From the NCBI GenBank assembly GCA_944385665.1, contig CALWYB010000020.1, positions 1 to 40,398 of the forward strand: a stretch of DNA of 40,398 bases, given 5' to 3'. The position numbers and the translations under genes were made by a program. Under the pieces are notes generated by a model, which made no database searches, was not told where the DNA came from, and worked only from the letters and a program-made list of their open reading frames with translations. Origin of the DNA: an uncultured Oscillospiraceae bacterium (GTDB lineage Bacteria; Bacillota; Clostridia; Oscillospirales; Oscillospiraceae). Positions 2,737 to 32,603 of this stretch are shown here, one piece after another. Each line of letters begins with the position of its first letter. Position 1 is the stretch's first letter.

Positions 2737-4194
2737 TTACACAACAGGAATTTGATTTTGCTCCAGCCAGGCAGCCACATCATCCGGCATCCCGGAACCG
2801 CCGGAATAGGAGATGGCCAGGCCTTCGCCCAGCACCGCCTCCGGCACCAGCTTGGTGATGGCCGTCAGGCTCTGGCCGAACCGGCCGCCGCCATGGCTGC
2901 AGAAGGGAACGATGGTTTTGCCGGTGAAGTCATATTCCTCCAGGAAGGAGGCCACCGGCATGGGAATGGAGGCCCACCAGTTGGGGTAGCCCAGCAAAAT
3001 GGTGTCGTACTGCTCCATATCCTCCACATGGGTGGATAGCTCCGGTCGGGCCTGGGCATTCTGGTCCCGCTGGGCCTGCTCGAGAACGGTGTTGTAGTCG
3101 GTAGAATAGGGCTCCGCCAGTTGGATCTCAAACAGATCTGCCCCGGTCTGGGCCTGAATTTCCTCTGCAATCCCCCGGGTATTGCCGCCCCAGGAGAAGT
3201 AGGCGATCAGCACATTTCCACCTTGTGTGCCCGTACTCTCCAGATTAGAGCCGGTCACCGTGCCGCTGCCGGCTGCGGCGTTGCGCACCAGACGGAAGCC
3301 CACATTGAAGACTACGCTGTCCTGAGGCAGCGTGGCCCGATAGGCCGAGCGGAGATTTTTGGCAAAGTCGTTCCAGCCTCCGCCCCGGTTTACCCGCATC
3401 ACGCCGCTGTCCGGACCGGCGGGATCCGTCTGTGCCTGGGTAGGATAGTCGCCGTAATAATCCCAGACCCACTCGCCCACATTGCCATGCATGTCATAGA
3501 AGCCCCAGGCATTGGGCTGAAAACTCCCTACGGCCACTGTGGTCTCCCGGTAGACGCCGGGCCGGGTCTCCAGATTGCTCTGGTTGAAGTAGTTGTCCTC
3601 AATGAGGTAGGGGTAATGGCCCCAGTAGTTGGACTCCTCCGCGCTGATGGAAGTCTCCGTGTTGAAGGGTGTCTCCGTCCCGGCCCGGCAGGCGTATTCC
3701 CACTCCGCCTCGGTAGGCAGGCGGTAGCCGTTGGCGCTGCGGTTCCAGGTCACGGTCTGTCCCTCTACGGTGTAGGCAGGATCCAGGCCCTCCAGCTCAC
3801 TGCGTGCGTTGCAGTATGCGATGGCGTCCAGCCAGGAGACGGTCTCCACCGGCAGGTTCTCGCCGGAAAAAGCGCTGGGATTAGAGCCGGTCACAGCCTG
3901 ATACTCCGCCTGGGTCACTTCAAAGGCACTCATATAGAAGTCACTGACTGTGACGGTGTGCTGCGTCTCGTCGTCGCTGCGCCAGGCCTCACTGTCCGGA
4001 CTGCCCATGGAGAAGGTGCCGCCCTCCACCAGAATAAAGTTTTCGGGGATCTGAGGCTGCTCCTCCTGGCCCTGCTGGCTGGAGGAGGGCGGAGGTGTTG
4101 GCTGCTGAGACTGTTCCGGCGGCGTCTGGGAGCCGCAGGATACCATTGTCCCTACCAGCAGCGCGGCCAGCAAAAGGAAACAAATTCGTTTCAT
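2737..4194 (-). CDS. Lipoprotein: FGE/SUMF1-like domain fused to flavodoxin
   Basis: This 485-residue protein starts with a lipoprotein signal (MKRICFLLLAALLVGTMVSC, acylated Cys20) and a Pro/Gln/Ser-rich linker. Residues ~54-304 are an FGE/SUMF1-type domain (MGSPDSEAW, GYRLPTEAEWEYACRAG, DMHGNVGEWVWD, RGGGWNDF, NVGFRLVR). The pair of cysteines used by true formylglycine-generating enzymes in the C-terminal segment is absent (GGGWNDFAKNLRSAYR), so sulfatase activation is unlikely. Residues ~328-485 are a flavodoxin (LIAYFSWGGNTRGIAEEI for the phosphate loop, YPNWWASIPMP for the flavin ring). Both domains should lie outside the membrane. The ATG has AGGAGG seven bases upstream. The fusion is unusual; the FGE-like part may bind a partner or sugar/peptide surface while the flavodoxin carries electrons. 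Confidence 0.88.
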   Translation of the reverse strand: MKRICFLLLAALLVGTMVSCGSQTPPEQSQQPTPPPSSSQQGQEEQPQIPENFILVEGGTFSMGSPDSEAWRSDDETQHTVTVSDFYMSAFEVTQAEYQAVTGSNPSAFSGENLPVETVSWLDAIAYCNARSELEGLDPAYTVEGQTVTWNRSANGYRLPTEAEWEYACRAGTETPFNTETSISAEESNYWGHYPYLIEDNYFNQSNLETRPGVYRETTVAVGSFQPNAWGFYDMHGNVGEWVWDYYGDYPTQAQTDPAGPDSGVMRVNRGGGWNDFAKNLRSAYRATLPQDSVVFNVGFRLVRNAAAGSGTVTGSNLESTGTQGGNVLIAYFSWGGNTRGIAEEIQAQTGADLFEIQLAEPYSTDYNTVLEQAQRDQNAQARPELSTHVEDMEQYDTILLGYPNWWASIPMPVASFLEEYDFTGKTIVPFCSHGGGRFGQSLTAITKLVPEAVLGEGLAISYSGGSGMPDDVAAWLEQNQIPVV

Positions 4195-9568: not shown

Positions 9569-10423
9569 ATGATGGAAACAATATTGCTGAGAAACCAGGT
9601 ATCAATGCCCCTTCAGGGGTTTGGCGTATTTCAAATTACCGACCCTACTCAGTGTGAACAGGCAGTAGCTCAGGCCCTCCAGGCAGGCTATCGACTCATT
9701 GACACGGCGGCCTGTTACGGCAACGAACGGGCAGTTGGAAAAGCCGTGACGGAGAGCGGTATCCCACGGCAGGACATCTTTCTGGTGTCCAAGGTGTGGA
9801 TCCAGGATGCCGGCTATGAGCAGACCAAACGGTCCTTTTCCAAAACTCTGGACAATCTGGGAACCGACTATCTGGACCTCTATCTGATCCACATGCCCTA
9901 TGGCGACTACCACGGCAGCTGGAGAGCCATGGAAGAACTCTATGAGGAGAGGCAGGTTCGGGCCATCGGGGTATGCAATTTCCTGCCGGATCGGCTGACC
10001 GACCTCATCCTGACCCACCGCATCGCCCCCATGGTGAATCAGATGGAGATTCACCCCTTCTGCCAGCAGGCGGAACTGCGCGCGCTGATGGCCCAGTACC
10101 AGATCCAGCCCATGGCCTGGGCCCCCTTTGCGGAAGGACAGAATCAGATTTTTACCCATCCTCTTTTGACACAGATCGGTCAGGCCTATGGAAAGACACC
10201 AGCACAAGTTGTTTTGCGGTGGCTCCTGCAAAATCAAATTGTGGCTATTCCCAAATCCGTACATGAGAATCGGATCAGGGAAAACTTTTCCATTGATGAC
10301 TTTGTGCTATCTCAGGAGGACATGGAACAAATTCAAAAGATGGACCTGGGGCACAGTGTGATTCTCAACATCACCAGTTTGGACGAGGTCCATCGACTGC
10401 ACGGTATCCAGTTTGAACAGTGA
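9569..10423 (+). CDS. Aldo/keto reductase (2,5-diketogluconate reductase-like)
   Basis: This reductase of about 284 residues starts MMETILLRNQVSMPLQGFGVFQ, with GGAG and AAAGGA upstream. An upstream in-frame ATG at 9491 would read through the perfect palindrome and is rejected. The tetrad is Asp and Tyr in LIDTAACYGNE, Lys in VSKVW and His in LIHMP. NFLPDRLTDLI and PKSVHENRIREN fit the substrate and cofactor loops of the DkgA/AKR5-like group. It is the last gene before a terminator at 10435 and probably belongs to the LysR-controlled set. Confidence 0.9.
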   Translation: MMETILLRNQVSMPLQGFGVFQITDPTQCEQAVAQALQAGYRLIDTAACYGNERAVGKAVTESGIPRQDIFLVSKVWIQDAGYEQTKRSFSKTLDNLGTDYLDLYLIHMPYGDYHGSWRAMEELYEERQVRAIGVCNFLPDRLTDLILTHRIAPMVNQMEIHPFCQQAELRALMAQYQIQPMAWAPFAEGQNQIFTHPLLTQIGQAYGKTPAQVVLRWLLQNQIVAIPKSVHENRIRENFSIDDFVLSQEDMEQIQKMDLGHSVILNITSLDEVHRLHGIQFEQ

Positions 10424-10434
10424 TTGCCCCAGTC

Positions 10435-10472
10435 AGCCCGGCCTGCATCAAACACAGGCCGGGCTGTTCTTG
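10435..10472 (+). terminator. Intrinsic terminator after the AKR
   Basis: Stem AGCCCGGCCTG/CAGGCCGGGCT with a nine-base loop, followed by GTTCTTGT. It separates the plus-strand operon from the converging radical SAM genes. Confidence 0.8.
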
Positions 10473-10481
10473 TCGGCGAAA

Positions 10482-11426
10482 CTACTTAGGCATCCTTTCT
10501 TCGGCAGTTCTATCTTTCCGGCTTCTCCTCCCGGTATTTTCCGAGCCGCGGACTTCCTCGTGGTAGAAGTAGTCCACGATGACCGGATGGCCGGGCTCCG
10601 CCCGGCCATAGGGCAGTTCGTTATCCACAAAGGGACAGCCATTTTCCATCGCCAGCTGTTCTGCTTGCTGCTCAAGGCCCCAGAAATAGCTTCGGTCACC
10701 CTTTTGGTAGATTTCCTGATATAAAGATGTTAGCTCGGGATGCTTTTCCTGGATGTAGTCTAAAATCTCCTGCTTGAATCCGCCCCGCAGGTTTAAGTTC
10801 TCCAGCCAGATCAGATCGCACTGATTCTTCACCCGATGGAAAATGGCCTCGAAATCCGTAATCCCGGGAAATACCGGCGCAATAAAGCAGACGGTGCGGA
10901 TGCCTGCGTCGTAGATCTGCTTCATGGCATGGAGCCGCCGCTCAATGCTCACTGCCTTGTCCATATCCCTGCGAAAATCCTCATCCAGCGTGTTGATGGA
11001 CCAGGAGACGGTCACCTTTCCCATCTCCCGGAGTAAGTCAATATCCCGCACCACCAGGTCGGACTTGGTGCAGATGAGAATCTCCGCCCCGCTGCCCTTC
11101 AGTTGCTCCAGCAGCTTGCGGGTATTTTGGAACTGCTCCTCCTGGGGAAGATAGCCGTCGGTCACCGAGCCAATGACGATCCGCTGTCCCCGGTATTTTT
11201 GGGGTTTTTTAATCTCCGGCCAGTGTTTTACATCCAGAAAGGTCCCCCAGGGCTCGGTGTGCCTGGTAAAGCGCTTCATAAAGGACGCGTAACAGTACTT
11301 ACAGCCGTGGGTGCAGCCCACATAGGGGTTTACGGAGTAGCCTCCCACTGGCAGATTGGATTTGGTCATGATGTTTTTTGTCTCTACATCCCCGATCAGG
11401 ATGCCGTTTTCCATCATCTCTGCCAT
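10482..11426 (-). CDS. Radical SAM protein, SplB-like (mobile pair protein B type)
   Basis: This 314-residue radical SAM enzyme has the cluster motif C38-x3-C42-x2-C45 in GCTHGCKYCYASFMKR. The following region (GSVTDGYLPQEEQFQNTRKLLE, ISWS-type strand, CFIAPVFPGITD) resembles spore photoproduct lyase-like proteins. It overlaps the other radical SAM gene by 13 bases, so the two are translationally coupled; GGAGG precedes its ATG at 11426. Tandem pairs of this kind travel between Firmicutes and are named radical SAM mobile pair proteins in current annotation. The substrate is unknown. A basic C-terminal tail (RRSRKDRTAEERMPK) ends the protein. Confidence 0.88.
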   Translation of the reverse strand: MAEMMENGILIGDVETKNIMTKSNLPVGGYSVNPYVGCTHGCKYCYASFMKRFTRHTEPWGTFLDVKHWPEIKKPQKYRGQRIVIGSVTDGYLPQEEQFQNTRKLLEQLKGSGAEILICTKSDLVVRDIDLLREMGKVTVSWSINTLDEDFRRDMDKAVSIERRLHAMKQIYDAGIRTVCFIAPVFPGITDFEAIFHRVKNQCDLIWLENLNLRGGFKQEILDYIQEKHPELTSLYQEIYQKGDRSYFWGLEQQAEQLAMENGCPFVDNELPYGRAEPGHPVIVDYFYHEEVRGSENTGRRSRKDRTAEERMPK

Positions 11427-12103
11427 TTCGCTTGTTCCTCCAGTACCTTATGAAATGCGGTGGGTAATTCCTGTATCATCTGTTCCTCTCCCATGATGGG
11501 AAGCAGGTCTTCCTTCATAAAGACCGGGATGCCCAGAGCATGGGCTTGATGGGTCAGGTTCCACACCCACTCCGGCTTGGATACGGATTTTCCTTTTCGG
11601 CGTCCGGTCTCGGTTCCGATGACCACCCACTCGATCCCTGTGAGATCCACTGGCCCGATGTCGTCGAACATGGGCTCAAAGGTGGCGTGATAATGTCTGC
11701 CGCGGATATGCTCCCGCAGTGCCGGGATCCGGTTCTTTTCCTTGCAAGAGGTAACGGTCACGCCGAACCAGGCGTTATCCAGATGAGTAGTGAAATCCAT
11801 CTCCTCCGGCCGTTTGGTCAGGAACAGATACTGGTGCTGGGGATTGCGCTCCATGTTGGCAAATACCTCATCCCGCCACTCTGCTCTCCAGCCGGAAAAG
11901 TCACTCATTCCAGTGAGCAGAAAAATCTGCGGTCGAGCTTTCTCCATAAGCCGCAATTTTCCGGGAAAGTACTCCGGCTTCTCAAAATCGTCAATCATAT
12001 GGAACCGTCGTACATTATTTCTGGCATAACAGTAGCTGCAGCCGATGGTACAGCCGATGACCAGATTCATGTTCTGAATCTGGGATTTGATGCACACCGC
12101 CAT
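11414..12103 (-). CDS. Radical SAM protein (mobile pair protein A type)
   Basis: This 229-residue protein has the 4Fe-4S/SAM motif C18-x3-C22-x2-C25 in IGCTIGCSYCYARNN close to the N-terminus. The middle (LLTGMSDFSGW, HQYLFLTKRPEEMDF, VTVTSCKEKNRIPALREHI) and end (EWVVIGTETGRR, GIPVFMKEDLLP) resemble phage-Gp37/DUF5131-like radical SAM proteins. It lies 26 bases after the flavin reductase and overlaps the second radical SAM gene. The order reductase, A, B suggests the reductase supplies electrons for the clusters, which is inference. Confidence 0.87.
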   Translation of the reverse strand: MAVCIKSQIQNMNLVIGCTIGCSYCYARNNVRRFHMIDDFEKPEYFPGKLRLMEKARPQIFLLTGMSDFSGWRAEWRDEVFANMERNPQHQYLFLTKRPEEMDFTTHLDNAWFGVTVTSCKEKNRIPALREHIRGRHYHATFEPMFDDIGPVDLTGIEWVVIGTETGRRKGKSVSKPEWVWNLTHQAHALGIPVFMKEDLLPIMGEEQMIQELPTAFHKVLEEQAKWQR

Positions 12104-12129: not shown

Positions 12130-12633
12130 TTAGCCTTCCACTGCCGGGGCGACTTTTCCAAAGCCGTTCCAGGCATAGAGACCCTGTTTGCTCTCATCCC
12201 CCAGGAACTTGTCCACCTGGCAGATATGCAGGATATGGTCGCCCACCTCTACAGCCTGCTGCAAAGTAGCCACCATGGCAAGGCGGGTATCCGCAGGAAT
12301 CTGAATGTCGCCGCCCTCTACGGAGGTCATCTCAATGTGGTTCTCCTCTACTTTTTGGCTGGTGGCGCCGGTGGAACTGCCGCAGGCCACCACGGCTTGG
12401 GTCAGACTCTCCCCCGGAACGGTCACGATTACCTTTCCGGTTTCCCGCACCCGCTTGCCGGTGTGGGACTGCTTACCGGCGGCAAAGCCGATCATGGGCG
12501 GGTTGAAGGACAGGTAGGAAATAAAGCAGATGGGGGCCAGGTTGGTGGTTCCGTCCTCATTCTGGGAACAGATCAGGGTCAGCGGATTGGGGGAGGTAAG
12601 AACAGTGGCCTCCATGATGTTCAGTTCTTTCAT
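12130..12633 (-). CDS. Flavin reductase family protein
   Basis: This 167-residue protein has the flavin-reductase-like split barrel (MEATVLTSPNPLTLICSQ, NLAPICFISYLSFNPPMIGF, RETGKVIVTVPGE, ending YAWNGFGKVAPAVEG). It is distinct from the flavin reductase at 2187-2723. GAGG lies nine bases before the ATG at 12633. It is the first gene of the minus-strand unit with the radical SAM pair. The promoter reads from 12724 and its -35 overlaps a probable HxlR operator. Confidence 0.88.
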   Translation of the reverse strand: MKELNIMEATVLTSPNPLTLICSQNEDGTTNLAPICFISYLSFNPPMIGFAAGKQSHTGKRVRETGKVIVTVPGESLTQAVVACGSSTGATSQKVEENHIEMTSVEGGDIQIPADTRLAMVATLQQAVEVGDHILHICQVDKFLGDESKQGLYAWNGFGKVAPAVEG

Positions 12634-12666
12634 AAATCAGCGCCTCGCTCTCTATCGTTTCTGTTG

Positions 12667-12695
12667 TTGACATCCTATTCTGATGCCGATATAAT
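12667..12695 (+). promoter_or_regulatory. Consensus promoter toward hxlR
   Basis: TTGACA (12667-12672), exactly 17 bases, TATAAT (12690-12695): a perfect consensus promoter pointing to the HxlR gene at 12784, leaving a leader of about 80 bases that contains the operator. Confidence 0.8.
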
Positions 12696-12696
12696 A

Positions 12697-12724
12697 ATTA
12701 TACTTAGAACAAATAAAGGTGCAA
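12697..12724 (-). promoter_or_regulatory. Promoter toward the flavin reductase/radical SAM operon
   Basis: On the minus strand TTGCAC, 16 bases, TATAAT. The start would lie near 12690, so it overlaps the -10 of the divergent promoter. Its -35 touches the left arm of the CAAGTAC dyad. Confidence 0.6.
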
Positions 12725-12746
12725 GTACGCAGATTATTTGTACTTG
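12722..12746. promoter_or_regulatory. Probable HxlR operator
   Basis: CAAGTAC (12722-12728) and GTACTTG (12740-12746) form a perfect dyad with an 11-base centre. It covers the minus-strand -35 and the leader of hxlR, a layout suited to repression of both. Related HxlR/YodB regulators bind TAC-GTA dyads. Confidence 0.6.
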
Positions 12747-12783
12747 GTACGAAAAACCATACCAGCGGAGAGAGGGCTGCGTT

Positions 12784-13149
12784 ATGAATCAATCCATGAC
12801 CTATGAGGAATTTCAAGCCCGAGTAGGCAGCGTCATCCTGACAGAGAACGGGAACTGCCCGGTCACACCAGTGATCCAGATGCTCCAGGGAAAATGGAAG
12901 CTCCAGATCATCTACGAGCTGTGCATCCAGTCTCCCATGCGGTTTGGGGAACTGAAGAAGATGCTCAAACCTATCACTAACACCATGCTCACCAATGCCT
13001 TGAAAGAGCTGGAAGGGGACGGTCTGGTGCACCGGGAGCAGTATAACGAGATCCCGCCCCGGGTGGAGTATTCCCTGACGGAAAAGGGAAGGGATCTGCT
13101 GCCAATTTTCTATGCCATCTCCCAGTGGGGTATGAAGTATATCCCTTGA
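12784..13149 (+). CDS. HxlR-family winged-helix regulator
   Basis: This 121-residue protein matches HxlR regulators: NCPVTPVIQMLQGKWKLQIIYELCI, PMRFGELKKML, TNTMLTNALKELEGDGLVHREQY and a wing ending VEYSLTEKGRDLLPI. Cys25 lies at the position where redox-sensing HxlR proteins carry their reactive N-terminal cysteine, which fits the flavin/Fe-S content of the divergent operon. GAGAGAGG precedes the ATG. It is followed by a strong terminator at 13191. It likely represses the flavin reductase/radical SAM genes. Confidence 0.92.
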   Translation: MNQSMTYEEFQARVGSVILTENGNCPVTPVIQMLQGKWKLQIIYELCIQSPMRFGELKKMLKPITNTMLTNALKELEGDGLVHREQYNEIPPRVEYSLTEKGRDLLPIFYAISQWGMKYIP

Positions 13150-13190
13150 GTGACCCGTCCCCAAAAGTTCCATCCAGAATATAAGAGACG

Positions 13191-13236
13191 CCGGAATGGT
13201 TTGACAGAGAGTCAAACCATTCCGGTGTTTTGCTCT
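13191..13236 (+). terminator. Terminator after hxlR
   Basis: A perfect 15-bp stem, CCGGAATGGTTTGAC with its complement, loop AGAGA, then TGTTTTGC. It ends the hxlR transcript. Confidence 0.85.
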
Positions 13237-13348
13237 ATTTCGGGGGGATGCGGGAGGACTCCTTTCTGCCAGGGGCAGCACCGATTCTTCCGCTTCCAAC
13301 AAAAAGATGACCGGACGAATGCCGTCCAGGCAGGCTTTACAGCCCGGA

Positions 13349-14224
13349 TCAGTCGGACAGAAATTCCATCAGTGCTTCTTTCTGTGCAGAAAAATCCCGC
13401 AGTCCCAGGTCATATAGCTCCCGTTCCGCTTCCTCCTTCATGGAGTAGGTTCCCACATGGATAGGCTCACTGGCGGCAAGGACAAAGGCAATCCCCTCCC
13501 GCTCCAGAGAAAACACATCCCTCAGGTTGTCGTTGTATACCACATGACGGCGATCAATGGCATCTACAATCCTGGGGTACCTGCGGCAAACCCGCCGGTA
13601 CAGTCTGCGCATGCCCTGGGGCTTTCGTACATAGTCCCGATTTTTGGAGAGAATGACCACCAGCTTCTCGCAGCCCTGCTCCAGGGCACGGCGAACCGGG
13701 ACGGCATCGGTAAGCCCTCCATCAAAGTAGGGCACCCCGTTGAGCTTCACCGGATGGCATGCAACCGGGATGGCACTGGAGGCCATGATCAGGCGGTAGT
13801 CGTCCTGCTTCATCATTTCCCGCCCATAATACTCCGGCAATCCTGTCAGCGCGTTTGTGACCACAATCTCGTACTCCGACGGGTTGTTCATCAGAGCGGG
13901 AAAATCCAGAGGATCTTCCCCTTCCCTGCGGGTCAATTCACCATAGATGTACTTCAATCCAAACAGATCTCCGGTTTTCAGCAGACTTCTCAGCCCAAAG
14001 TAATTCGGCGAATGAATATGCTCCGTAAAAAAGCGAAGATTCCGGCCTCTTTGCCCCGCCAGATAGGACGCCAGATTGCCCGATCCCCCGGATACGCCGA
14101 TGCAATAATCAAACGTAATCCCTTCGTCCAGAAAGGCATCCAGAATTCCGGCGTTATAGGCACACTTCATTCCGCCGCCTTCCACCACCAATCCAATCTT
14201 TTTCTGCGTGTTCGTTGTCAACAT
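13349..14224 (-). CDS. Patatin-like phospholipase
   Basis: This 291-residue patatin-family serine hydrolase carries the oxyanion loop GLVVEGGGMKCAYNAG, the nucleophile elbow GVSGGS (Ser45) and the dyad Asp168 in YFDGGL. It resembles the small bacterial RssA/YchK group and has no signal peptide. The ATG at 14224 lies four bases after the Rrf2 stop, directly beside GAGGAG, so translation is probably coupled to Rrf2. A slightly later TTG start is possible. Its link to the sirtuin operon across the shared control region suggests a common response, perhaps lipid acyl hydrolysis under stress; the substrate is unknown. Confidence 0.9.
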   Translation of the reverse strand: MLTTNTQKKIGLVVEGGGMKCAYNAGILDAFLDEGITFDYCIGVSGGSGNLASYLAGQRGRNLRFFTEHIHSPNYFGLRSLLKTGDLFGLKYIYGELTRREGEDPLDFPALMNNPSEYEIVVTNALTGLPEYYGREMMKQDDYRLIMASSAIPVACHPVKLNGVPYFDGGLTDAVPVRRALEQGCEKLVVILSKNRDYVRKPQGMRRLYRRVCRRYPRIVDAIDRRHVVYNDNLRDVFSLEREGIAFVLAASEPIHVGTYSMKEEAERELYDLGLRDFSAQKEALMEFLSD

Positions 14225-14228
14225 CTCC

Positions 14229-14687
14229 TCATGGGGTAAGATCCCGCTCTGACTTCTGTTCCAGTTCGTCCAGTTTTTTACCGTACCGGTCTATGATGTC
14301 CTGCAGGGTGATGGTCTGCATTTTTTGTTCGGCAGCCCTCTGGATCTCCTGGTAAAAGTCTGCAATGCTCAGCTGCACATAGATCCCCACACCACATTCC
14401 GGATTGGTATCAATATCCCAGTGAAGCAGGGGCTTATTCCCCTCAATCGCCCGATAGACATCCAACACCGTAATCTCGCCCGGTCGTCTGGTCAATTCCG
14501 CATTGGCCTGTCCCTGTGAGCTGGCGATAATACCAGCACTCTTCAGCGCGGCCATCAACTGCCGGATATAGGCTGGGTTCGTTTTTACACTTTCTGCGAT
14601 CTTAGCACTTGTGATCCGCTGACCGGCTCCCATACTGAGAAAGGCTAATATATGAAGTGCGTCGCTCAACTTGGTAGAGTATTTCAT
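14229..14687 (-). CDS. Rrf2-family transcriptional regulator
   Basis: This 152-residue protein matches Rrf2 regulators: MKYSTKLSDALHILAFL, a helix-turn-helix (ITSAKIAESVKTNPAYIRQLMAAL), and a wing with the ELTRRPGEITVLDVYRAIEG segment. The usual three Fe-S cysteines are not present; only Cys98 in NPECGVG remains, so an iron-sulfur cluster like that of IscR or NsrR is doubtful. GAGGTGAG precedes the ATG. It is divergent from the sirtuin operon, and two 21-base direct repeats between them overlap the -10 elements of both directions, so it should regulate itself, the patatin and the sirtuin operon. Confidence 0.9.
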   Translation of the reverse strand: MKYSTKLSDALHILAFLSMGAGQRITSAKIAESVKTNPAYIRQLMAALKSAGIIASSQGQANAELTRRPGEITVLDVYRAIEGNKPLLHWDIDTNPECGVGIYVQLSIADFYQEIQRAAEQKMQTITLQDIIDRYGKKLDELEQKSERDLTP

Positions 14688-14720
14688 GCTCTCACCTCAA
14701 AAAATTTTTCGTTTCCTACT

Positions 14721-14776
14721 TGTAATTTATAAAGTAACATGATATGCTTGCAGCATGTAATTTTTATAATAACATG
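14721..14776. promoter_or_regulatory. Paired Rrf2 operators over divergent promoters
   Basis: Two 21-base direct repeats, 14721-14741 and 14756-14776, match at 18 positions. Both begin TGTAATTT, end AACATG, and are partly self-symmetric. Their starts are 35 bases apart. The palindrome ATGCTTGCAGCAT lies between them. Copy 2 contains the plus-strand TATAAT (14765-14770) and copy 1 contains a minus-strand TATAAA. This is what a repressor of both directions would need. Confidence 0.7.
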
Positions 14777-14787
14777 TTGGAGGAACC

Positions 14788-15708
14788 ATGTCAACTATGC
14801 TGCTGAACCGCAAAACATCCGTCGATCCAGCCGTCCACCGCCAAAATGTGCAGGTCTTGCTGGGAAAAATTGCTGAGGCCGATGCAATTTTGGTGGGCGC
14901 CGCGGCGGGTATGTCCGCTTCCTGCGGCTTCAACTTCTTTTATCAAAACGATGCGATATTTGAGCAATACTTGGGCAACTTCCATCGGAAATATGGATTT
15001 ATTGGGGCATTCAATGGCTTTTACTACCGTTATCCCTCCCCGGAGGCCCACTGGGCCTTCCTGGCCCGAATGGGTTACATGGAGTATGAATGTCCCACAG
15101 GCCAGCCCTACTATGACCTGATGATGCTGCTCCAGGGCAGGAATTACCACATTATGACCACCAACCAGGACTTTCAGTTTACCCGCGTGGTACCGGAAGA
15201 CAAGCTAAGCGCCATCCAAGGGGACTCCCGCTATTACCAGTGCAGCCGCCGCTGCCACGACGAGATCTACTGGAACAAAGAGATGGTTTATGAAATGAAC
15301 GACGCAATTGACGAAAATCTCTGTATCCCAACAGAATTGATCCCACGGTGTCCCAAATGCGGTGCGGAAATGGAGCCTTGGGTGCGGGGCTATACCTTTT
15401 TGGAGGGTAAGAAGTACAAGGAAGAATATCGAAAGATCAATGAGTTCCTAATCGCCAATCAGGGCAAAAAAATTCTCTTCCTGGAATTGGGGGTAGGCCG
15501 CATGACCCCCATGTTTATTCAGGAGCCCTTTTGGAGCCTGACCTATTCCCTACCACAGGCATATTACATCACCATTAACCCAAAAGACGCGCTTCTGCCC
15601 CAAGAATTATCGCAAAAGGGTTGGGCCATCAAAGAGGATATTGCCGCAGTCTTGCGGGATGCGGCAGCACACATGTCCGGAAAGGGAGACTCGGTATGTA
15701 TGATTTAA
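14788..15708 (+). CDS. Sirtuin-like protein (SIR2 family), first of a tandem pair
   Basis: This 306-residue protein follows the SIR2 layout: NAD loop AILVGAAAGMSASCGF (~34-48), TTNQDFQF (~124-131), the motif IQGD at 143-146, a zinc ribbon with Cys152, Cys156, Cys188 and Cys191 (YYQCSRRC, RCPKCG), and a late LFLELGVGR strand. The catalytic His of deacetylating sirtuins is Gln144 here, as in class M sirtuins that act as protein ADP-ribosyltransferases. GGAGG lies before the ATG at 14788. It is the first gene of a four-gene operon and overlaps the next gene by 13 bases. Confidence 0.85.
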   Translation: MSTMLLNRKTSVDPAVHRQNVQVLLGKIAEADAILVGAAAGMSASCGFNFFYQNDAIFEQYLGNFHRKYGFIGAFNGFYYRYPSPEAHWAFLARMGYMEYECPTGQPYYDLMMLLQGRNYHIMTTNQDFQFTRVVPEDKLSAIQGDSRYYQCSRRCHDEIYWNKEMVYEMNDAIDENLCIPTELIPRCPKCGAEMEPWVRGYTFLEGKKYKEEYRKINEFLIANQGKKILFLELGVGRMTPMFIQEPFWSLTYSLPQAYYITINPKDALLPQELSQKGWAIKEDIAAVLRDAAAHMSGKGDSVCMI

Positions 15709-16532
15709 GACCAATCGCAAAGAAAATCCAGGAAGCGGACGCCATCTTGATTGGAGCCAGCAATGGCCTGTCCATGACTGAGGGACTGCACCTCTTTGCA
15801 GATAACCAGGCATTTGAGAATTTGTTCGGCGACTTTAAGGAAAAGTACGGCCTGCGGTGCCTGCTGCATGGGATGGGAGCCCGCTGGCCTTCGGAAGAAA
15901 TAAAGTGGGCCTTCTGGAGCAGGCTCATCCACCACTACTGCGGACAGTATCAGCCCACACAAGTCATGCAGGACTTGAAAGCCATTGTGGGCAGCAGGGA
16001 CTATTTTGTCCTTACCTCCAACGGAGAATGTCACTTTGAACGCAGTGGATTTGCATCGGAGAAGATCTATGAAATCGAGGGAACCTGGCTGACCATGCAG
16101 TGTGCCCGCCCCTGTCATGACACCCTATATCCCACGTTGGAGTTGGCAGAGCGGATGGCAGCTGCGGAACAGGACGGCAGAATCCCCTCTGATTTGGTGC
16201 CCCGTTGTCCTCGCTGCGGCAGCCCCATGGAGGTTCATATGGCAGCAGGGCCAAATATGGTTCCGGACCACGGTGCCAGACAGAGATTCCAGAGTTTTCT
16301 GAACCAATACCACGGGAAAAAGCTGGTGGTACTGGAGTTGGGCATCGGATGGCGCAACCAACTTATCAAAGCACCGCTGATGCGTATGGTGGCTCAGGAG
16401 CCCAACGCCACCTATGTTACCATCAATCTGGGTGAGGTTTACATTGCAGACAGCATCAAACGCAAGTCCTTTGGTCTGGACGGAGCGCTGAGCGATATCC
16501 TCTCCGCCCTCCGGGAGGTGTGCGAAGGATGA
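15696..16532 (+). CDS. Sirtuin-like protein, second of a tandem pair
   Basis: This 278-residue paralogue of the preceding protein starts at MYDLRPIAKKIQEADAILIG, with GGGAG seven bases before the ATG inside the end of the first gene. It keeps the NAD loop (ILIGASNGLSMTEG), a TSNGECHF counterpart of the NAD-ribose motif, and the zinc cysteines 136, 140, 171 and 174 (QCARPC, RCPRCG). The catalytic His position reads IEGT, with Glu128, so the two copies differ from each other as well as from deacetylases. They may form a heterodimer or have split functions. Confidence 0.83.
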   Translation: MYDLRPIAKKIQEADAILIGASNGLSMTEGLHLFADNQAFENLFGDFKEKYGLRCLLHGMGARWPSEEIKWAFWSRLIHHYCGQYQPTQVMQDLKAIVGSRDYFVLTSNGECHFERSGFASEKIYEIEGTWLTMQCARPCHDTLYPTLELAERMAAAEQDGRIPSDLVPRCPRCGSPMEVHMAAGPNMVPDHGARQRFQSFLNQYHGKKLVVLELGIGWRNQLIKAPLMRMVAQEPNATYVTINLGEVYIADSIKRKSFGLDGALSDILSALREVCEG

Positions 16533-17092
16533 ATGTACCAACACTGGTTCGAGAGCGTTACAAAATATGGTCCCGTTTTTTGAAGGAGCAGGTGTTTTTT
16601 TCTCTCCAGCACAGTCAGCAGCACACAAAAGAACACTGTGCCCGGGTGCTGCTCTTCTGCCTGCTTTTTGCACAACGGGAGAATCTGTCAGAACAAGACG
16701 CAGATGCCCTTGCTATGGCCGCCTGCTTTCATGACTCCCGCCGTATGAACGACGGATTGGATGTAGGTCACGGTCACCGGGCCGCCGAATATTATCGCAC
16801 CTGGTGCGCCGAGCATGAGCATGTATTGGATGCCCGCGTTGTTTGGATCATGGCATACCACGAACAAAACGACGAACTTGGCAAGGCAGCTTTGCGGCGG
16901 GAGTTTCCAGATGACCCGAATGCAGTTCTGCTGTATCAGCTTTTCAAGGACGCAGACGCATTGGATCGCTTTCGGCTGGGGCCGGAAGGTCTGGATATCA
17001 ATTATCTCCGAACTCCCTACGCGAAAGAGTTGGTAGAGTTCTCCCAAACACTGCTCCGAATCGGACCGGAACGTGTTTTATCGGAGTCTTAA
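16529..17092 (+). CDS. HD-domain hydrolase
   Basis: This 187-residue protein starts at MNVPTLVRERYKIW; its ATG overlaps the previous stop as ATGA. An early His (QHTKEHC, ~36), then FHDSRR (His68-Asp69) and a following HGHRAAEYY region with a later Asp in KDADALDRF give the H...HD...D set of metal-dependent HD phosphohydrolases. Substrates in the family are nucleotides, cyclic nucleotides or (p)ppGpp. In this operon with two NAD-using sirtuin-like proteins, a nucleotide or ADP-ribose-derived substrate is plausible but unproven. Confidence 0.82.
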   Translation: MNVPTLVRERYKIWSRFLKEQVFFSLQHSQQHTKEHCARVLLFCLLFAQRENLSEQDADALAMAACFHDSRRMNDGLDVGHGHRAAEYYRTWCAEHEHVLDARVVWIMAYHEQNDELGKAALRREFPDDPNAVLLYQLFKDADALDRFRLGPEGLDINYLRTPYAKELVEFSQTLLRIGPERVLSES

Positions 17093-17120
17093 GAATCAAT
17101 TTCATAAGGAGGAAATCAAT

Positions 17121-17471
17121 ATGAAACTGGGAATCATTCGTTGTATGCAGACCGAGGACTACTGCCCCGGAAGCCGGGATTTCAAAACCATCCGGGAACG
17201 GAAGGGGGCTTTTTCGGATGTGGATGACATTGAATTGGTAGGCTTTATCAACTGCGGTGGCTGCCCGGGCAAAAAAGCGGTGCTGCGAGCAAAATCCCTT
17301 GTCAGCCAAGGGGCGGATACCATTGCGTTTGCCTCCTGTATCCAAAAGGGCACTCCCATTGGCTATCCGTGTCCCTTTGCCAAGCGTATGAAAGATCTGG
17401 TACAAAATGCCGTGGGCGACCAGGTTCAGATTCTGGATTATACCCATGATGCAGGACCGGAACAGGTCTGA
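17121..17471 (+). CDS. CGGC domain protein
   Basis: This 116-residue protein with AAGGAGG before its ATG begins MKLGIIRCMQTEDYCPGSRDF and contains the name-giving NCGGCPGKKA. More cysteines follow in FASCIQKGTPIGYPCPF. It is the small CGGC family, often in anaerobes and methanogens, thought to bind metal; its function is not established. It lies 28 bases after the HD gene, last in the sirtuin operon and just before repeat copy B. Confidence 0.85.
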   Translation: MKLGIIRCMQTEDYCPGSRDFKTIRERKGAFSDVDDIELVGFINCGGCPGKKAVLRAKSLVSQGADTIAFASCIQKGTPIGYPCPFAKRMKDLVQNAVGDQVQILDYTHDAGPEQV

Positions 17472-17487
17472 ACTTTTGAACCAGACA

Positions 17488-17700
17488 CTCCTTTTTTGTT
17501 TACAGTCCCCCATTTTCTGAGCCGTGGATCAGGGAGAAGTTACTTGCATTATCCCGCCTTCAGAGGTACCATACAGGCGATCAGAAACACGAAAAACGCT
17601 CCCCCTCCCCTACCGGTGAACACCGGCAAAGGATTGGGAGCGTTTTTGACCACAGAACCCACCACACACCGCCCTGTACTACACGGAATCAGCATGGACA
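17488..17700. repeat. Structured repeat, copy B
   Basis: Second copy of the element at 576-785, in the same orientation. It holds the identical 37-base block (17636-17672) and a hairpin with outer stem CGCTCCC/GGGAGCG (17597-17642) and inner stem CCGGT/ACCGG with a GAAC loop. The outer stem, A run and T run are conserved; the inner stem differs from copy A but pairs, which points to selection on structure. Copy B is also followed at about 80 bases by a tRNA 3' half. Confidence 0.8.
17597..17647 (+). terminator. Hairpin with T-tract inside repeat copy B
   Basis: AAAAA-CGCTCCC ... GGGAGCG-TTTTT can terminate transcription on either strand. It lies about 125 bases after the end of the sirtuin operon and is its most likely terminator. 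Confidence 0.65.
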
Positions 17701-17779
17701 AAGAGAGTTAAAGATGAAGTGGAATGGAGCCGAAACTATTCAAAGTAGTAACAATTAACAGGAAAATTTTTATAAATAC

Positions 17780-17825
17780 GTTCGGGCCCATGAGGCCGTG
17801 GGTTCAAATCCCGCCACTCGGACCA
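17780..17825 (+). pseudogene. tRNA-Pro-like 3' half
   Basis: The stretch reads anticodon-loop-like TTCGGG, then GAGGCCGTGGGTTCAAATCC, CACTCGG, discriminator A and CCA. T-arm, acceptor 3' strand and encoded CCA are all present, and the GGG fits a proline anticodon. The 5' half (CCGAGTG and D-arm) is absent; the sequence before it is AT-rich. A tRNA-type terminator follows directly at 17825. This is the pattern left where an integrative element enters a tRNA gene and displaces its 3' end. Confidence 0.7.
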
Positions 17826-17862
17826 AAAACCGCCATTTTCGTATGAAAATGGCGGTTTTTTA
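17825..17862 (+). terminator. Strong terminator following the tRNA remnant
   Basis: A perfect stem ACCGCCATTTTC/GAAAATGGCGGT, loop GTAT, flanked by A and T runs. It probably was the terminator of the original tRNA gene and so is native flanking DNA. Confidence 0.9.
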
Positions 17863-17934
17863 TTGCTTTTTGTTGCAAAATTGAGGCTGAAAAATCCGGT
17901 AGCGTCAAGGATTTTGCGCAAATTTGATACTCTG

Positions 17935-18195
17935 CCCAGATCCAGAAGCTTGTCCTTCCTGCGCAAGATCTCATCCAGTTCGCTTGTGTACTTGTGTAAA
18001 CGATAGGAGACTTACAACCGCCTTTTCCTTCCTTGGCGCTCTGCTTGGCCGACCGCTTGGCTTACATGAGATTCGCTTTCTCCCATAGTTCCTCCGAAAC
18101 AATGGGTGGAATGTTCTCCTCATCCTTATACACAACCCACTGATCTGGCTTAAAGATTTTAATGGTGTATATCTCCTTTTTCGGTACAATATCCA
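17935..18195 (-). pseudogene. Serine recombinase remnant
   Basis: On the minus strand one frame reads DIVPKKEIYTIKIFKPDQ, then WVVYKDEENIPPIVSEELW and EKANLM, a TAA at 18064-18062, then AKRSAKQSAKEGKGG in the same frame. After a frame change there is KYTSELDEILRRKDKLLD. The motif W-x-x-Y-x-(D/E)-E-x-x-P-x-I-(I/V)-x-E-x-L-W is that of the recombinase domain of large serine recombinases. Neither the N-terminal catalytic domain nor a complete C-terminus remains. It is a decayed integrase, next to the tRNA remnant, and supports a history of integration here. Confidence 0.7.
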
Positions 18196-18282
18196 AGATT
18201 TAGCTTTAATTTGGTGCAGTCATATAAATCACATTCCGTACATTCCATGATCCCGGATCAGTCGCTATTCCATCCCACTCCA

Positions 18283-18420
18283 TCAGTATTGTTCTTTAAG
18301 GGATAGGATATTCCGCTTGATCTTCTCAGGGACAGAAGGCGTTCTTAAAAGCGGCTCAGCGTAGCAGTGGATGTAGTCGCGTGGGGGCAATAGTCTGCAT
18401 TTTTGCTTTTGCCTAGGGGA
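18283..18420 (-). pseudogene. Possible C-terminal gene fragment, unknown
   Basis: A frame of about 40 codons ends at TGA (18285-18283) and reads PPRDYIHCYAEPLLRTPS then VPEKIKRNILSLKEQY. It looks like a real protein C-terminus, with helix-forming charged residues, but has no start codon or ribosome site and is not recognised. It is likely debris of the same island as the recombinase remnant. Confidence 0.35.
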
Positions 18421-18487
18421 TAATGGCAATCTTCCCTCAGATCAAGCCTTGCGCTATTCACACTGTATATCCAAAATTAATAAAAGA

Positions 18488-18512
18488 GTCCTGCTGATAG
18501 GAAGGGCAGGAC
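18488..18512 (-). terminator. Probable terminator of the sulfite-reductase operon
   Basis: GTCCTGC/GCAGGAC with an 11-base loop, followed on the minus strand by TCTTTTATTAATTTT. It lies about 175 bases after the stop at 18689. Between them I see only a short unsupported frame. Confidence 0.6.
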
Positions 18513-18688
18513 GGGTCCAAATGATTCACCGGTGTATGTACAAGAAAAGAGGCCTTGTGCATGGGAAAAGAATCATTGGAATCGCTGCTCTATATCAGCA
18601 GGACATATGTACAACGAAGCGACAGGCCGGGAGGTCTTGGGGAAGAGGTAACCGGCCGCGTTCGGTCGTACCGGATAGAGGGAGAAAA

Positions 18689-19636
18689 TCAGCAGGTGGC
18701 GCCGCCCTCCAGGTGGAGAGGAGCATCCAGAATGGCCTGCTTGCGCTCCATTACATCGCCGGCCTTGAGCTGGGATACAAAGTTGTCCACCCCGATACGC
18801 TCGATGAACATACCGAAACGCTCGCCGGTCTGGCCCTGCTCCCGATAGAGGAGAAGAGCACGCTCGATCATCTGGAATACCTCTTCTTTCGTGTAGATCT
18901 CGTCCAACATGGTGCCCAGACGCTGGCGCTTGCCCCAGATACCGCCGACGAAAATACGGTAACCCACCTTTTCCTCGGTGACGCAGTCAAAGTTGCAGGT
19001 GTCTACACATTTGCCGCAGTTATTGCAGGCGTCCCGGTCAATCTGCATGATGCCGTCCTCATCCATGTGGGCGGCCTTAATGGGGCAGTTGTCAATCACG
19101 GGACATTTGCGGCAGCCATTGCACTCGTCGGGGTCGTAGGCGGGGACCTTCTGGCCCATGATTCCAAAATCGTTGAGGGCGGGTTTGACGCAGTTGTTGG
19201 GACAGCCGCCGATCCCGATCTTGAACTTGTGGGGAAGTTTCACATCATACCAGCCCTTGTAGAAGGTCTCGTGGAGCTCCCGGGCCAGGGCCTGGGTGTC
19301 GATGAGGCCGTGGATACACACCGTGCCCTTACAGGGAACGATGGGACGGACTCGGGAACCGGTACCGCCGGTATAAAGACCTACTTTGGAAATAAACTCA
19401 TTGAACGGCTCGATGGTCTCGTAGGTGAGCCCCTGCACCTCTACGGTCAGCCGGGTGGTCATGGCCATCTGGCCGTTGCCGAACTGTTCCGCGGCCTGAC
19501 CCAGCGCGGCCAACTGCTCGCTGGTCATCAGGCCGTCCACCGTGATGATCCGGGCGATAAAGTGTACGCCGTCCCGGGTGATGATATAGCCGCGCCCTTT
19601 CAGCGCCTTCTTTTCCGCATCAGAAATACTCATCAT
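18689..19636 (-). CDS. Siroheme sulfite/nitrite reductase-like protein with ferredoxin domain
   Basis: This 315-residue protein has a ferredoxin-like half domain (~15-85), the siroheme/4Fe-4S ligands C102-x4-C107 and C145-x3-C149 (VPCKGTVCIHG, GGCPNNCVKP), and two ferredoxin clusters (C172, C175, C178, C184 and C204, C207, C210, C214). It is about half the size of plant-type sulfite reductases and resembles the small anaerobic type. GGGAG precedes two adjacent ATG codons; the first is used here. It follows the CoA-disulfide reductase by 18 bases and so should act on sulfite or a related oxidised sulfur or nitrogen compound, taking electrons from its own clusters. Confidence 0.88.
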   Translation of the reverse strand: MMSISDAEKKALKGRGYIITRDGVHFIARIITVDGLMTSEQLAALGQAAEQFGNGQMAMTTRLTVEVQGLTYETIEPFNEFISKVGLYTGGTGSRVRPIVPCKGTVCIHGLIDTQALARELHETFYKGWYDVKLPHKFKIGIGGCPNNCVKPALNDFGIMGQKVPAYDPDECNGCRKCPVIDNCPIKAAHMDEDGIMQIDRDACNNCGKCVDTCNFDCVTEEKVGYRIFVGGIWGKRQRLGTMLDEIYTKEEVFQMIERALLLYREQGQTGERFGMFIERIGVDNFVSQLKAGDVMERKQAILDAPLHLEGGATC

Positions 19637-19654
19637 GTTATCTCCCTTATTTTG

Positions 19655-21292
19655 TCATTTGGCAGAAATTACTTCCGTATTAAAGAGGGTGCCGCCCTCC
19701 AGGACCTTGGTGTTGGTGTAGCCGTAATATTTCAGCCGGTTCTGGAGCAGGTAAGCCCGCTTGCCCTTGGAGCAGACCAGGAGCAGCTTCTCCTGGGGGT
19801 CCAGACCGTCCACCGGCCCGGTCACCTTGGTGAGATCCACGTAGGGAACTCCAGGGATGGAGGGCTGGATGGAGGCGTCAATCATCCGGTACCCTTCGGC
19901 GGCACCGGCGGCGTACTCCGCTGGGGTAAAGGTCTCAAACGCGCCGGAGAGCTTGTTGAGCAGTACGTCCACCGTCACAGCGAAGGGATGAATGGCGGTG
20001 GAGAATGGAGGCGCATACGCAAAGTCGCAGTTCTGTAAATCCTCCAGAGTGGCCTTCATGGAGATGGCAGTGACCGCAATGTCGGCCATCTTGTCTACCG
20101 CGCCCTTGCCCAGCACCTGGATGCCCAGGAGACGGTGGGTGGCTTTTTCGCAGACCATTTTGGTGAGGAACGAGCCGGAGCCGGGATAGTAGTGGGCCTT
20201 GTCATCGGTGACGGTGACAACGCTTTCCACCTCGTAGCCCGCCTTTTTGGCGGCGGTCTCCGTCAGGCCGGTGCGGGCCATCTGGATGCCGGGCAGCTTG
20301 GCGACACCGGTGCCCAGCACGCCGGGGTAGGGATCACCGGCCTCACCGGCGATCCGGGTGGCGGCCAGCCGGCCGGCGATGTTGGCGGTGGAGCCCATGG
20401 CGGACCACTGGCGGGCGCCGGTAATGCGGTTGGTGACCAGCGCGCAGTCGCCGGCAGCGTAGATGTCCGGATCATTGGTGCGCATGTCGCCGTCCACCAG
20501 CAGGGTCCCCTTGAACATCTCCAGGCCGCTATCCTGGAGAAATTCCGTGTTGGGGCGGAAGCCCATGGCCAGCAGAACCGCATCCGCCTTCATGGGGCGG
20601 CGGCTGGTCAGCACCTTTTCCACCTTGCCGTTGCCTGTGATGCCTTCCAGCGCGACTCCGGTGAAGGGCATAACCCCTGCATCCGCCATGGCGTTTTCCA
20701 CGTAGGTGGAAAATTCGGGGTCCAACAGCTCGGGGAGCACATGGGGGGCAAAGTCGATGACAGAGACCTTGACGCCCATGTTGGCCAGATTCTCCGCCGA
20801 TTCCAGGCCGATGAAACCGCCGCCCACAATGACAGCCCGCTTGATCTCTCCGGAATCCACCTTGGCCCGCAGGGCCACCGCGTCATCCGGAGTGCGGAGA
20901 AAGAAGACGTTTTCCAGATCGGTGCCCTCACACTGGGGGACAAAAGAATGGGCGCCGGTGGCGATGACCAGCTTGTCATAGTGCTGAGTAAAGACCTGGC
21001 CGGAGGTCAAATCCTTGGCGGTGACCGTCTTGGATGCCCGGTCCAGGCTGGTGACCTCCACACCGGTGCGCACCTGAGCGCCGGTGAGGGCGGTAAAGGC
21101 CTCCGGGGTGTTGACCACCAGTTCCGCCCGCTGTTCAATGACATGCCCCACATAGTAGGGCAGGCCGCAGCCTGCGTAGGAGATATCTGCCCCCTTGGTC
21201 AGGATCTGGACCTCACACTGGGGACGTTCCCGTTTCAATTTGGCAGCGACCTTGGTGCCGGCAGCTACGCCGCCCACAATGACAATCTTCAC
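19655..21292 (-). CDS. CoA-disulfide reductase / polysulfide reductase with rhodanese domain
   Basis: This 545-residue flavoprotein starts with a GTG (AGGAGG eight bases before) at MKIVIVGGVAAGTKVAAKL. FAD loop GGVAAG, redox Cys in ISYAGCGLPYYVG, NAD loop VIVGGGFIGLESAENL and IYAAGDCALV show the pyridine nucleotide-disulfide fold. The C-terminal ~90 residues form a rhodanese-like domain with the loop LLLVCSKGKRAYLLQ and its catalytic Cys. This two-domain form reduces CoA-persulfide or polysulfide with NAD(P)H. Together with the sulfite-reductase-like gene it makes a sulfur-handling end to the operon. Confidence 0.93.
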   Translation of the reverse strand: MKIVIVGGVAAGTKVAAKLKRERPQCEVQILTKGADISYAGCGLPYYVGHVIEQRAELVVNTPEAFTALTGAQVRTGVEVTSLDRASKTVTAKDLTSGQVFTQHYDKLVIATGAHSFVPQCEGTDLENVFFLRTPDDAVALRAKVDSGEIKRAVIVGGGFIGLESAENLANMGVKVSVIDFAPHVLPELLDPEFSTYVENAMADAGVMPFTGVALEGITGNGKVEKVLTSRRPMKADAVLLAMGFRPNTEFLQDSGLEMFKGTLLVDGDMRTNDPDIYAAGDCALVTNRITGARQWSAMGSTANIAGRLAATRIAGEAGDPYPGVLGTGVAKLPGIQMARTGLTETAAKKAGYEVESVVTVTDDKAHYYPGSGSFLTKMVCEKATHRLLGIQVLGKGAVDKMADIAVTAISMKATLEDLQNCDFAYAPPFSTAIHPFAVTVDVLLNKLSGAFETFTPAEYAAGAAEGYRMIDASIQPSIPGVPYVDLTKVTGPVDGLDPQEKLLLVCSKGKRAYLLQNRLKYYGYTNTKVLEGGTLFNTEVISAK

Positions 21293-21319
21293 CTTGATAG
21301 CCTCCTTGCATCCTCAAAC

Positions 21320-21805
21320 TCAATCTTCATATACGGTCAAGGAACTGCAGCAATCATCGCCAAGCAATGTATTCTTTACCGGCTTAAACACTACTTTCCG
21401 CCCGTTGCTCAAACTGCTGTAACCGCGGCGGATAGCTGCATCAATATAGCAGTATAAATGTCCAACCTCTTGCCATCCCCACTGCTTCCACACCTCTGCC
21501 TGCGCACAGACGGGCGTAGTGCTGTATTTTCGATCGCCTTCATACTTTCGATCCGGAAGCCAGCCCTCCTCCAGTGGAATGTCGTAATAGGCATCTAGAT
21601 TTTCAATGGTCAACTCTTTCCCGTCTGCCAAGACACGCTTCGCAATTTCTCTTCCCCGATACTCCCCGAAAAGAATGATCGCACGTTTAATGACCTCTTT
21701 TGCACCATCCCCATATTCTTCCAACATTTCTTTGGTCATAAAATAGTACAGATTTGCCATATGTACGGCCATCTGGTCAATGGCTTGCTTGGTTGCACTT
21801 CCCAT
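21320..21805 (-). CDS. ATC hydrolase-family protein
   Basis: The 161-residue version starts at the ATG 21805 (MGSATKQAIDQMAVHMANLYY). An upstream GTG at 21847 would add 14 residues but has no spaced ribosome site and overlaps the preceding gene more. The protein resembles the L-2-amino-thiazoline-4-carboxylate hydrolase family: a helical N-terminal half, then EGWLPDRKYEGDRKYSTTPVC and QEVGHLYCYIDAAIRRGY. In Pseudomonas the founding member opens the thiazoline ring to N-carbamoyl-L-cysteine, which an M20 amidohydrolase then cleaves; an M20 gene occurs in this same locus. Activity here is inferred, as many family members are uncharacterised. Confidence 0.72.
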   Translation of the reverse strand: MGSATKQAIDQMAVHMANLYYFMTKEMLEEYGDGAKEVIKRAIILFGEYRGREIAKRVLADGKELTIENLDAYYDIPLEEGWLPDRKYEGDRKYSTTPVCAQAEVWKQWGWQEVGHLYCYIDAAIRRGYSSLSNGRKVVFKPVKNTLLGDDCCSSLTVYED

Positions 21806-21822
21806 ATTCAGTCCCGCCTTTT

Positions 21823-32514: not shown

Positions 32515-32603
32515 GTGTGAATTTTTCTATGTAAGTATATTTTTTACAAATAATCGTCGTTTGTTTGCGGTAAGTATTTACAGAAAATGCTTTTTTCTTA
32601 ATG

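Follow-up and report, generated by a model that had tools for sequence, protein, structure and literature searches.

Tandem class M sirtuins opposite a single-cysteine Rrf2 repressor: a possible stress-induced ADP-ribosylation module of gut Clostridia

What might be the function of a locus in which two sirtuin-like genes lie in tandem and face the gene for an Rrf2 repressor? The question is raised by a stretch of 40,398 nucleotides from an uncultured Oscillospiraceae bacterium (contig CALWYB010000020.1 of assembly GCA_944385665.1), which we call, at its full length, the window. At positions 13349-17471 it carries a module of six genes, with sirA, sirB and the genes for an HD-domain and a CGGC-domain protein on the plus strand and rrf2 and a patatin gene on the minus strand, divergent from sirA. 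A preliminary description had set out these six genes and their positions, overlaps of 13 bases (sirA/sirB) and 4 bases (sirB/HD) and the divergence from rrf2 and patatin, all of which is confirmed by the coordinates. The answer that we develop here is that the locus may encode a stress-induced, electrophile-inducible module for ADP-ribosylation at the expense of nicotinamide adenine dinucleotide (NAD), in which SirA would write the mark and SirB would be its eraser or the partner of SirA. We put this reading forward tentatively, with a confidence that stops just short of even.

The products of sirA (14788-15708, plus strand, 306 residues) and sirB (15696-16532, plus strand, 278 residues) are 33% identical to each other, and neither of them reached a Pfam SIR2 model at an E value of 0.1. 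In phmmer searches against the PDB, SpySirTM (5a3a), the ADP-ribosylating SirTM of Streptococcus pyogenes, matched SirA with an E value of 5.6e-44 and SirB with one of 5.5e-40, and the second match of both proteins was 8rsn, a fungal macrodomain-SirTM fusion. The AlphaFold2 models, with a mean predicted local distance difference test score (pLDDT) of 90.1 for SirA and 92.8 for SirB, also had 5a3a as their best PDB match, at TM-scores by query length of 0.82 and 0.88, respectively. Deacylases of the CobB type were rejected as an assignment, because NCBIfam matches were partial and far below the cut-off and because the HG motif is replaced. The sirtuin-like identity proposed earlier stands as far as the fold is concerned and is corrected to class M, i.e., to the ADP-ribosyltransferase and not the deacylase type, with an altered active site in SirB.

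Class M sirtuins are defined by a QG motif where others have HG, together with their linkage to macrodomains, and the activity of SpySirTM is described as dependent on Asn118, Gln137 and Arg192 (Rack et al. 2015; PMC4518038). In an alignment to SpySirTM, the catalytic set of Asn118, Asp120, Gln137 and Arg192 is retained in all 53 SirA-type rows (same-genome repeats included), and it is equally complete in 22 of 22 rows of canonical SirTMs from the same bacterial family. SirA of the window combines a fold nearest to SpySirTM with QG for HG, Asn118 and Arg192, and is predicted from these features to be a writer of the mono-ADP-ribosyltransferase type. SirB has the same nearest structure and lacks both QG and Arg192. 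In its 50 rows, Asn118 is always present, Glu always occupies positions 120 and 137, the latter change producing an EG motif, and Arg never occurs at position 192. The loop GAGLS is replaced by SNGLS in 47 of these rows and by SNGFS in two, and is incomplete in one. Plasmid-borne SirBs differ at position 120, where they have Asp; an acidic residue is thus kept there, and the pocket of SirB has invariant residues of its own. The rows counted include genomes fetched twice (L002-L009 versus named loci) and nine rows of a third sirtuin, SirA2, and they omit rows aligning over fewer than 200 residues as well as the broken SirBs of loci L075 and L076. In other folds, enzymes that cleave NAD and transfer ADP-ribose typically place a carboxylate at the ribose. 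SirB is predicted to be an eraser, an NAD/ADP-ribose enzyme or an obligate partner of SirA.

The 44 loci underlying our comparison (3.0-20.8 kb each) were collected by a pattern scan of genome contigs for six peptides taken from the window SirB. They stem mainly from gut Clostridia, with many poultry-derived isolate names; many of them are closely related to one another, and metagenome assemblies form the majority. One of the six peptides, EKIYEIEG, contains the Glu of the EG motif, and as 10 of the 44 loci match this peptide alone, their Glu conservation is partly built in. EG is also present in SirBs that were found without this peptide (L079, L080, L092 and both copies from genome G294, L097 and L109), and likewise in plasmid SirBs and in the family-genome loci L003-L009, which came from outside the peptide scan. 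In a phylogenetic tree of 120 rows, a branch sets each of SirB (48 rows), SirA (41) and canonical SirTM (23) apart from the other rows, with values of 100, 99 and 100, respectively, in the Shimodaira-Hasegawa-like approximate likelihood ratio test (SH-aLRT); this was a quick tree without bootstrap, from which L003-L008 and rows below 200 residues were omitted. SirB apparently forms an EG branch of the class M sirtuins that has no earlier report.

The two sirtuins belong together. SirA is encoded no more than 1.5 kb from SirB in 39 of 40 testable loci, the sole exception being L075, in which SirB (10001-10651) has an internal stop and SirA is missing. Among 300 genomes of the family, strong SirA and strong SirB occur in the same eight (Fisher p 7e-16, ignoring kinship), where strong means at least 51% identity for SirB and at least 43% for SirA, with the cut placed at a gap in the score lists. 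Chance adjacency was rejected as unlikely on these two grounds. Strong SirB was detected in 8 of the 300 genomes sampled from the family, 4 of 295 from the order, 2 of 391 from the class and 1 of 299 from the phylum, each sample containing the window genome, and the pair is rare and patchy. Gene neighbourhoods, which had been proposed as a check, reveal co-occurrence and not scatter for SirA and SirB; co-occurrence of the gene set as a whole holds for the pair and usually for Rrf2 (near the pair in 30 of 37 loci), and HD, CGGC and patatin accompany it in a minority of the loci. What stays constant is the core of SirA and SirB, to which Rrf2 usually belongs.

Variation within the pair itself was also encountered. 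The third sirtuin, SirA2, is of the QG type and occurs in 8 of the 44 loci. A single open frame on a metagenome contig (L071, 10800-12284) joins a SirA2-type sirtuin to an HD protein; a Pfam scan of the fusion returned no family at 0.01, and its HD part was recognized by tblastn with the HD protein of the window. A decayed SirB, spread over two reading frames, is present in L076 (6539-7251). In L041 (8045-9121 and 9662-10837), SirA is 81% identical to the window SirA and groups with it, and SirB groups with those of L039 and L042, whose SirAs are 47-49% identical to the window SirA; judging from these sequences, it looks as if SirA had passed from one pair to another.

Plasmids carry the pair as well. 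Five of 35 plasmid records were examined, and in these five pairs from Bacillales and Lactobacillales motif inspection found EG in every SirB and QG in every SirA. On plasmids of Mesobacillus and Paenibacillus, the genes for SirA, SirB, HD, a nicotinate phosphoribosyltransferase and an isochorismatase-family protein follow in this order. The families of the salvage-type neighbours were confirmed by Pfam for Mesobacillus, and the isochorismatase-family gene possibly encodes a nicotinamidase. Other regulators occur near the pair, namely HxlR in Paenibacillus and annotated TetR in Lactobacillales. The SirBs of three Lactobacillales plasmids (L089, L090 and L091) have a C-terminal extension, with Cupin_5 in L090, the one scanned with Pfam, and the SirAs of the same three have, by eye, apparently lost the zinc-ligand cysteines.

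In the class M systems known so far, undoing the mark requires a macrodomain, and the arrangement found here contrasts with them. We searched for macrodomains by tblastn, with four frames of the Zn type and the macrodomain of the window genome as queries. None was found in the 44 loci, the best match in the window had an E value of no less than 0.17, and the control was positive in 17 of 22 canonical SirTM loci. The macrodomain of the window genome itself, on contig C91, has by eye an ordinary GGGGVDGAIH loop and not the Cys/His loop of the Zn type. Pfam scans of 18 window proteins turned up neither GcvH-L nor LplA2, GcvH and LplA models not having been run on the 44 loci.

How is the pair controlled? 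The best PDB match of the protein encoded by rrf2 (14229-14687, minus strand), for which Pfam identified the Rrf2 family, is YwnA from Bacillus subtilis (1xd7, E value 7.9e-22). Its only cysteine, Cys98, is invariant in 32 of 32 rows. An Rrf2 of the iron-sulfur type was rejected, since there is one cysteine only and no three-cysteine iron-sulfur motif, and the protein was placed in the YwnA/SifR single-cysteine class. YwnA and SifR are described as members of one single-cysteine class, SifR as a sensor of quinones, and TGTAA-N9-TTACA as the sequence bound by SifR and HypR (PMC9218516); HypR is reported to sense hypochlorous acid (HOCl) via Cys33-Cys99' (PMC10715087). Our operator motif was found in the intergenic regions before it was compared with this published one. 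In its relaxed form, TGTWA-N9-TWACA, it occurs in 28 of 30 regions between rrf2 and sirA, with two sites in 25 of them, against a mean of 0.075 loci after composition shuffling. A promoter of the form TTGACA-N15-19-TANNNT was recognized in 21 of the 30 related regions and lies between the two operators in 17.

In the window, both operators read TGTAA-N9-TAACA on the plus strand. Operator 1 (14721-14739) overlaps the likely -35 element of the sirA promoter, which was read by eye as TTGTAA-N17-TATGCT (14720-14748, plus strand), and operator 2 (14756-14774) is situated between the sirA -10 element and the start codon and also overlaps the -10 element of the predicted rrf2 promoter. When up to two mismatches are allowed, the specific operator pattern finds these two sites and no others across the genome of 2.63 Mb. 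A third site in the window, at 32530-32548 between two open frames, is matched by the relaxed pattern and was missed by the stricter one. Induction of the locus by electrophiles or oxidants is the likeliest reading of these sequences by analogy with SifR and HypR, and the combination of repressor type and operator points to thiol/electrophile stress rather than to defence.

The remaining genes of the module are less constant. The HD protein (16529-17092, plus strand, 187 residues) is a predicted metal-dependent phosphohydrolase; its Pfam score of 22.4 bits is barely above the 22-bit cut-off, the residues H32/H36, H68-D69, H81, H111 and D141, with the full H...HD...D set of metal ligands among them, are kept in 10 of 10 rows, and it shares 51% identity with the HD protein behind SirA-SirB on the Paenibacillus plasmid. 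The CGGC-domain protein (17121-17471, plus strand, 116 residues, 104.5 bits in Pfam) is predicted to bind metal. Its most likely start is the ATG at 17121, which agrees with the start of its relatives and is preceded by AGGAGG, and the gene therefore begins 28 bases past HD without overlap; the coupling of the sirtuin and HD genes stands. Across a gap of 4 bases, rrf2 is followed on the minus strand by the gene for a patatin-like phospholipase with DUF6363 (13349-14224), both domains being matched by Pfam. Within 5 kb of SirB, HD is encoded in 12 of 34 loci (directly behind SirB in 9 of 44), CGGC in 10 of 29, patatin in 12 of 34, DUF3786 in 17 of 34 (Pfam family for three representatives) and a CooC-like ATPase, by our own label (CbiA in Pfam), in 11 of 30; loci with a match were counted even on short contigs, which slightly raises these fractions. 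HD is a recurrent extra, and CGGC, patatin and DUF3786 are optional. It had been suggested that one regulator governs lipid- and nucleotide-cleaving enzymes, and because HD, CGGC and patatin are optional, such a gene set is not a fixed feature. Searches of the PDB yielded nothing for HD and only a meaningless match at 0.98 for CGGC, and searches of the open-access literature yielded one paper for DUF3786, unrelated by title, and none for the CGGC domain. CGGC, or DUF3786 in other species, is at best a candidate for the ADP-ribose acceptor.

From the gene identities, residue patterns, pairing, operators and macrodomain-free loci we infer the following inducer and enzymatic steps. At rest, the single-cysteine Rrf2 would occupy the two operators that flank the sirA promoter. 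A thiol-reactive electrophile (a quinone, an oxidant of the HOCl type or similar) would modify Cys98, Rrf2 would leave the DNA, and sirA-sirB-HD-CGGC would be expressed, as would rrf2-patatin in the opposite direction. SirA would then spend NAD in order to ADP-ribosylate a target, and SirB, of the same fold but with a carboxylate where the nicotinamide ribose is contacted, would most likely work on this ADP-ribose chemistry as well, by removing the mark or hydrolysing NAD or ADP-ribose, or serve as an obligate partner subunit of SirA; it would take the place that the macrodomain has in the known systems. HD might clean up the nucleotide product, and in Bacilli the neighbouring salvage enzymes could recycle nicotinamide. 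The locus offers a route to the role of EG sirtuins and to SirTM targets in bacteria without a lipoyl operon, and its operators imply a testable class of inducers (quinones, HOCl and other electrophiles) in gut Clostridia.

Several observations weigh against this scheme. SirB is without two of the three residues important in SpySirTM and may therefore be inactive; a macrodomain is encoded elsewhere in 41 of the 44 pair-bearing genomes, including that of the window, and could erase in trans; and the tree program warned of long branches meeting. In 35 of 44 loci SirB is not followed by an HD gene, no Rrf2 gene lies within 4 kb in 7 of 37, and a search of the five plasmid loci from Bacilli and Lactobacilli gave no operator, so that this regulation is not universal. 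The distant macrodomain, the near-obligate pairing and the replacement of Gln137 and Arg192 in every SirB row would suit a catalytically dead SirB that binds SirA, and perhaps NAD, in a regulatory or substrate-presenting role and leaves erasure to the macrodomain elsewhere. We consider such a pseudo-enzyme possible but doubtful, as the persistence of Asn118, of the acidic residue at 120 and of invariant pocket residues suggests selection on a working pocket and not decay; sequence as such does not separate it from an eraser. A bolder proposal, namely that SirB is a new catalytic EG sirtuin whose ribose-facing Glu reverses or hydrolytically finishes the marks of SirA, such that the pair would form an electrophile-triggered, macrodomain-free writer-eraser switch made of sirtuins throughout, appears unlikely to us. 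That the system consists of Rrf2, SirA and SirB only, with CGGC, patatin and possibly HD as hitchhikers, is a serious possibility which nevertheless falls somewhat short of probable: it agrees with their minority linkage and with L033, L036, L037 and L073, the near relatives of the window clade, where SirB is followed by CGGC and HD is lacking, whereas HD stands behind SirB in two Bacilli, is fused to SirA2 in L071 and, among the 300 family genomes, has strong matches in five, four of them with the pair beside it and the fifth (G085) without a pair in the 1.5 kb seen. A close patatin, found in one of 59 other relatives and there as a fragment, likewise weighs against hitchhiking.

The preliminary description had also left room for a defence module, and anti-phage activity or abortive infection through NAD depletion by the sirtuins could draw on the patchy distribution, the occurrence on plasmids, the NAD-salvage neighbours in two Bacilli, a PHROG Sir2 family that matches both SirA and SirB, two phage records with distant matches (35-38% to SirB) and a weak match of the patatin to a phospholipase effector in PADLOC (E value 0.0017). 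SirA, SirB, HD and CGGC, however, have no family in PADLOC-DB, the match of Rrf2 there is weak (E value 0.035), no relative was confirmed in viral contigs, and a dedicated SifR/YwnA-type repressor with two operators fits a chemically induced response. The locus is a regulated module for which the repressor type and operators make a stress role likely, and a role in defence, little supported by PADLOC, viral contigs and phages, strikes us as very improbable. We also judge it quite improbable that the sirtuins modify a small electrophile or drug with the help of NAD, or hydrolyse an unusual nucleotide, instead of acting on a protein; the regulators of the ligand or redox type near the pair (Rrf2, HxlR, annotated TetR) and the flavin reductase and HxlR genes that Pfam identified in the window would accord with detoxification, but the nearest characterized relatives modify a protein.

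The window has further features outside the module. Positions 17780-17898 contain the 3' 46 bases of a proline transfer RNA (tRNA-Pro, CGG) with CCA and a terminator; aligned over 121 columns, this segment shares 93% identity with the intact tRNA-Pro gene of contig C49. No whole tRNA was found in the window, and an Rfam search of 12500-18700 returned only an 18-base sub-threshold match inside this fragment, which could be an old integration (att) site adjoining the module. Genes for a radical S-adenosylmethionine (SAM) protein and a DUF5131 protein are present beside the module, at 10482-12103. L053 has a second rrf2-patatin pair that is followed by similar radical SAM/DUF5131 proteins (12491-14100) and whose rrf2 is 67% identical to that of the window, compared with 52% for the L053 rrf2 that is divergent from SirA. 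In an open frame at 2740-4194, an FGE-sulfatase domain precedes a flavodoxin domain, a fusion that is unusual to our knowledge. On the minus strand past the module (18689-23841) there are genes for sulfite-reductase-like, pyridine nucleotide-disulfide oxidoreductase and old-yellow-enzyme-like proteins; the last is more than 4 kb from the module, unlike the old yellow enzyme gene within the extended SirTM operon (PMC4518038).

How, then, does the module relate to systems already described? In the open-access literature, judged by titles and the opening lines of abstracts, we recognized no paper on this locus, and the earlier statement that the gene set has no described system holds to that extent. 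With anti-phage sirtuins such as Thoeris ThsA, SIR2-HerA and others (PMC9503650) it shares a sirtuin-superfamily domain that uses NAD; it differs from them in its class M branch, its inducible repressor, the lack of a PADLOC family and the absence of an adjoining TIR, HerA, Argonaute or SLOG gene. Much closer are the SirTM/Zn-macrodomain systems, which are tied to the redox response (PMC4518038) and for which GcvH-L is given as the only known SirTM target, those of other systems being described as open (Ariza et al. 2024; PMC11490716). The fold, the nearest structure, the catalytic set of SirA, the operon setting and the redox-stress link are alike, whereas the loci studied here have two or three tandem sirtuins, an EG type as the second of them, no macrodomain in the locus, HD, CGGC, DUF3786 or patatin as neighbours and, among the scanned window proteins, neither GcvH-L nor LplA2. 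On the side of regulation, SifR/YwnA (PMC9218516) and HypR (PMC10715087) resemble the window Rrf2 in the single cysteine at the same site, in an operator of the TGTAA-N9-TTACA type and in the redox/electrophile theme; the window protein has Cys-Gly-Val in place of Cys-Pro-Val, its sites differ by one arm base, and it faces a divergent sirtuin operon.

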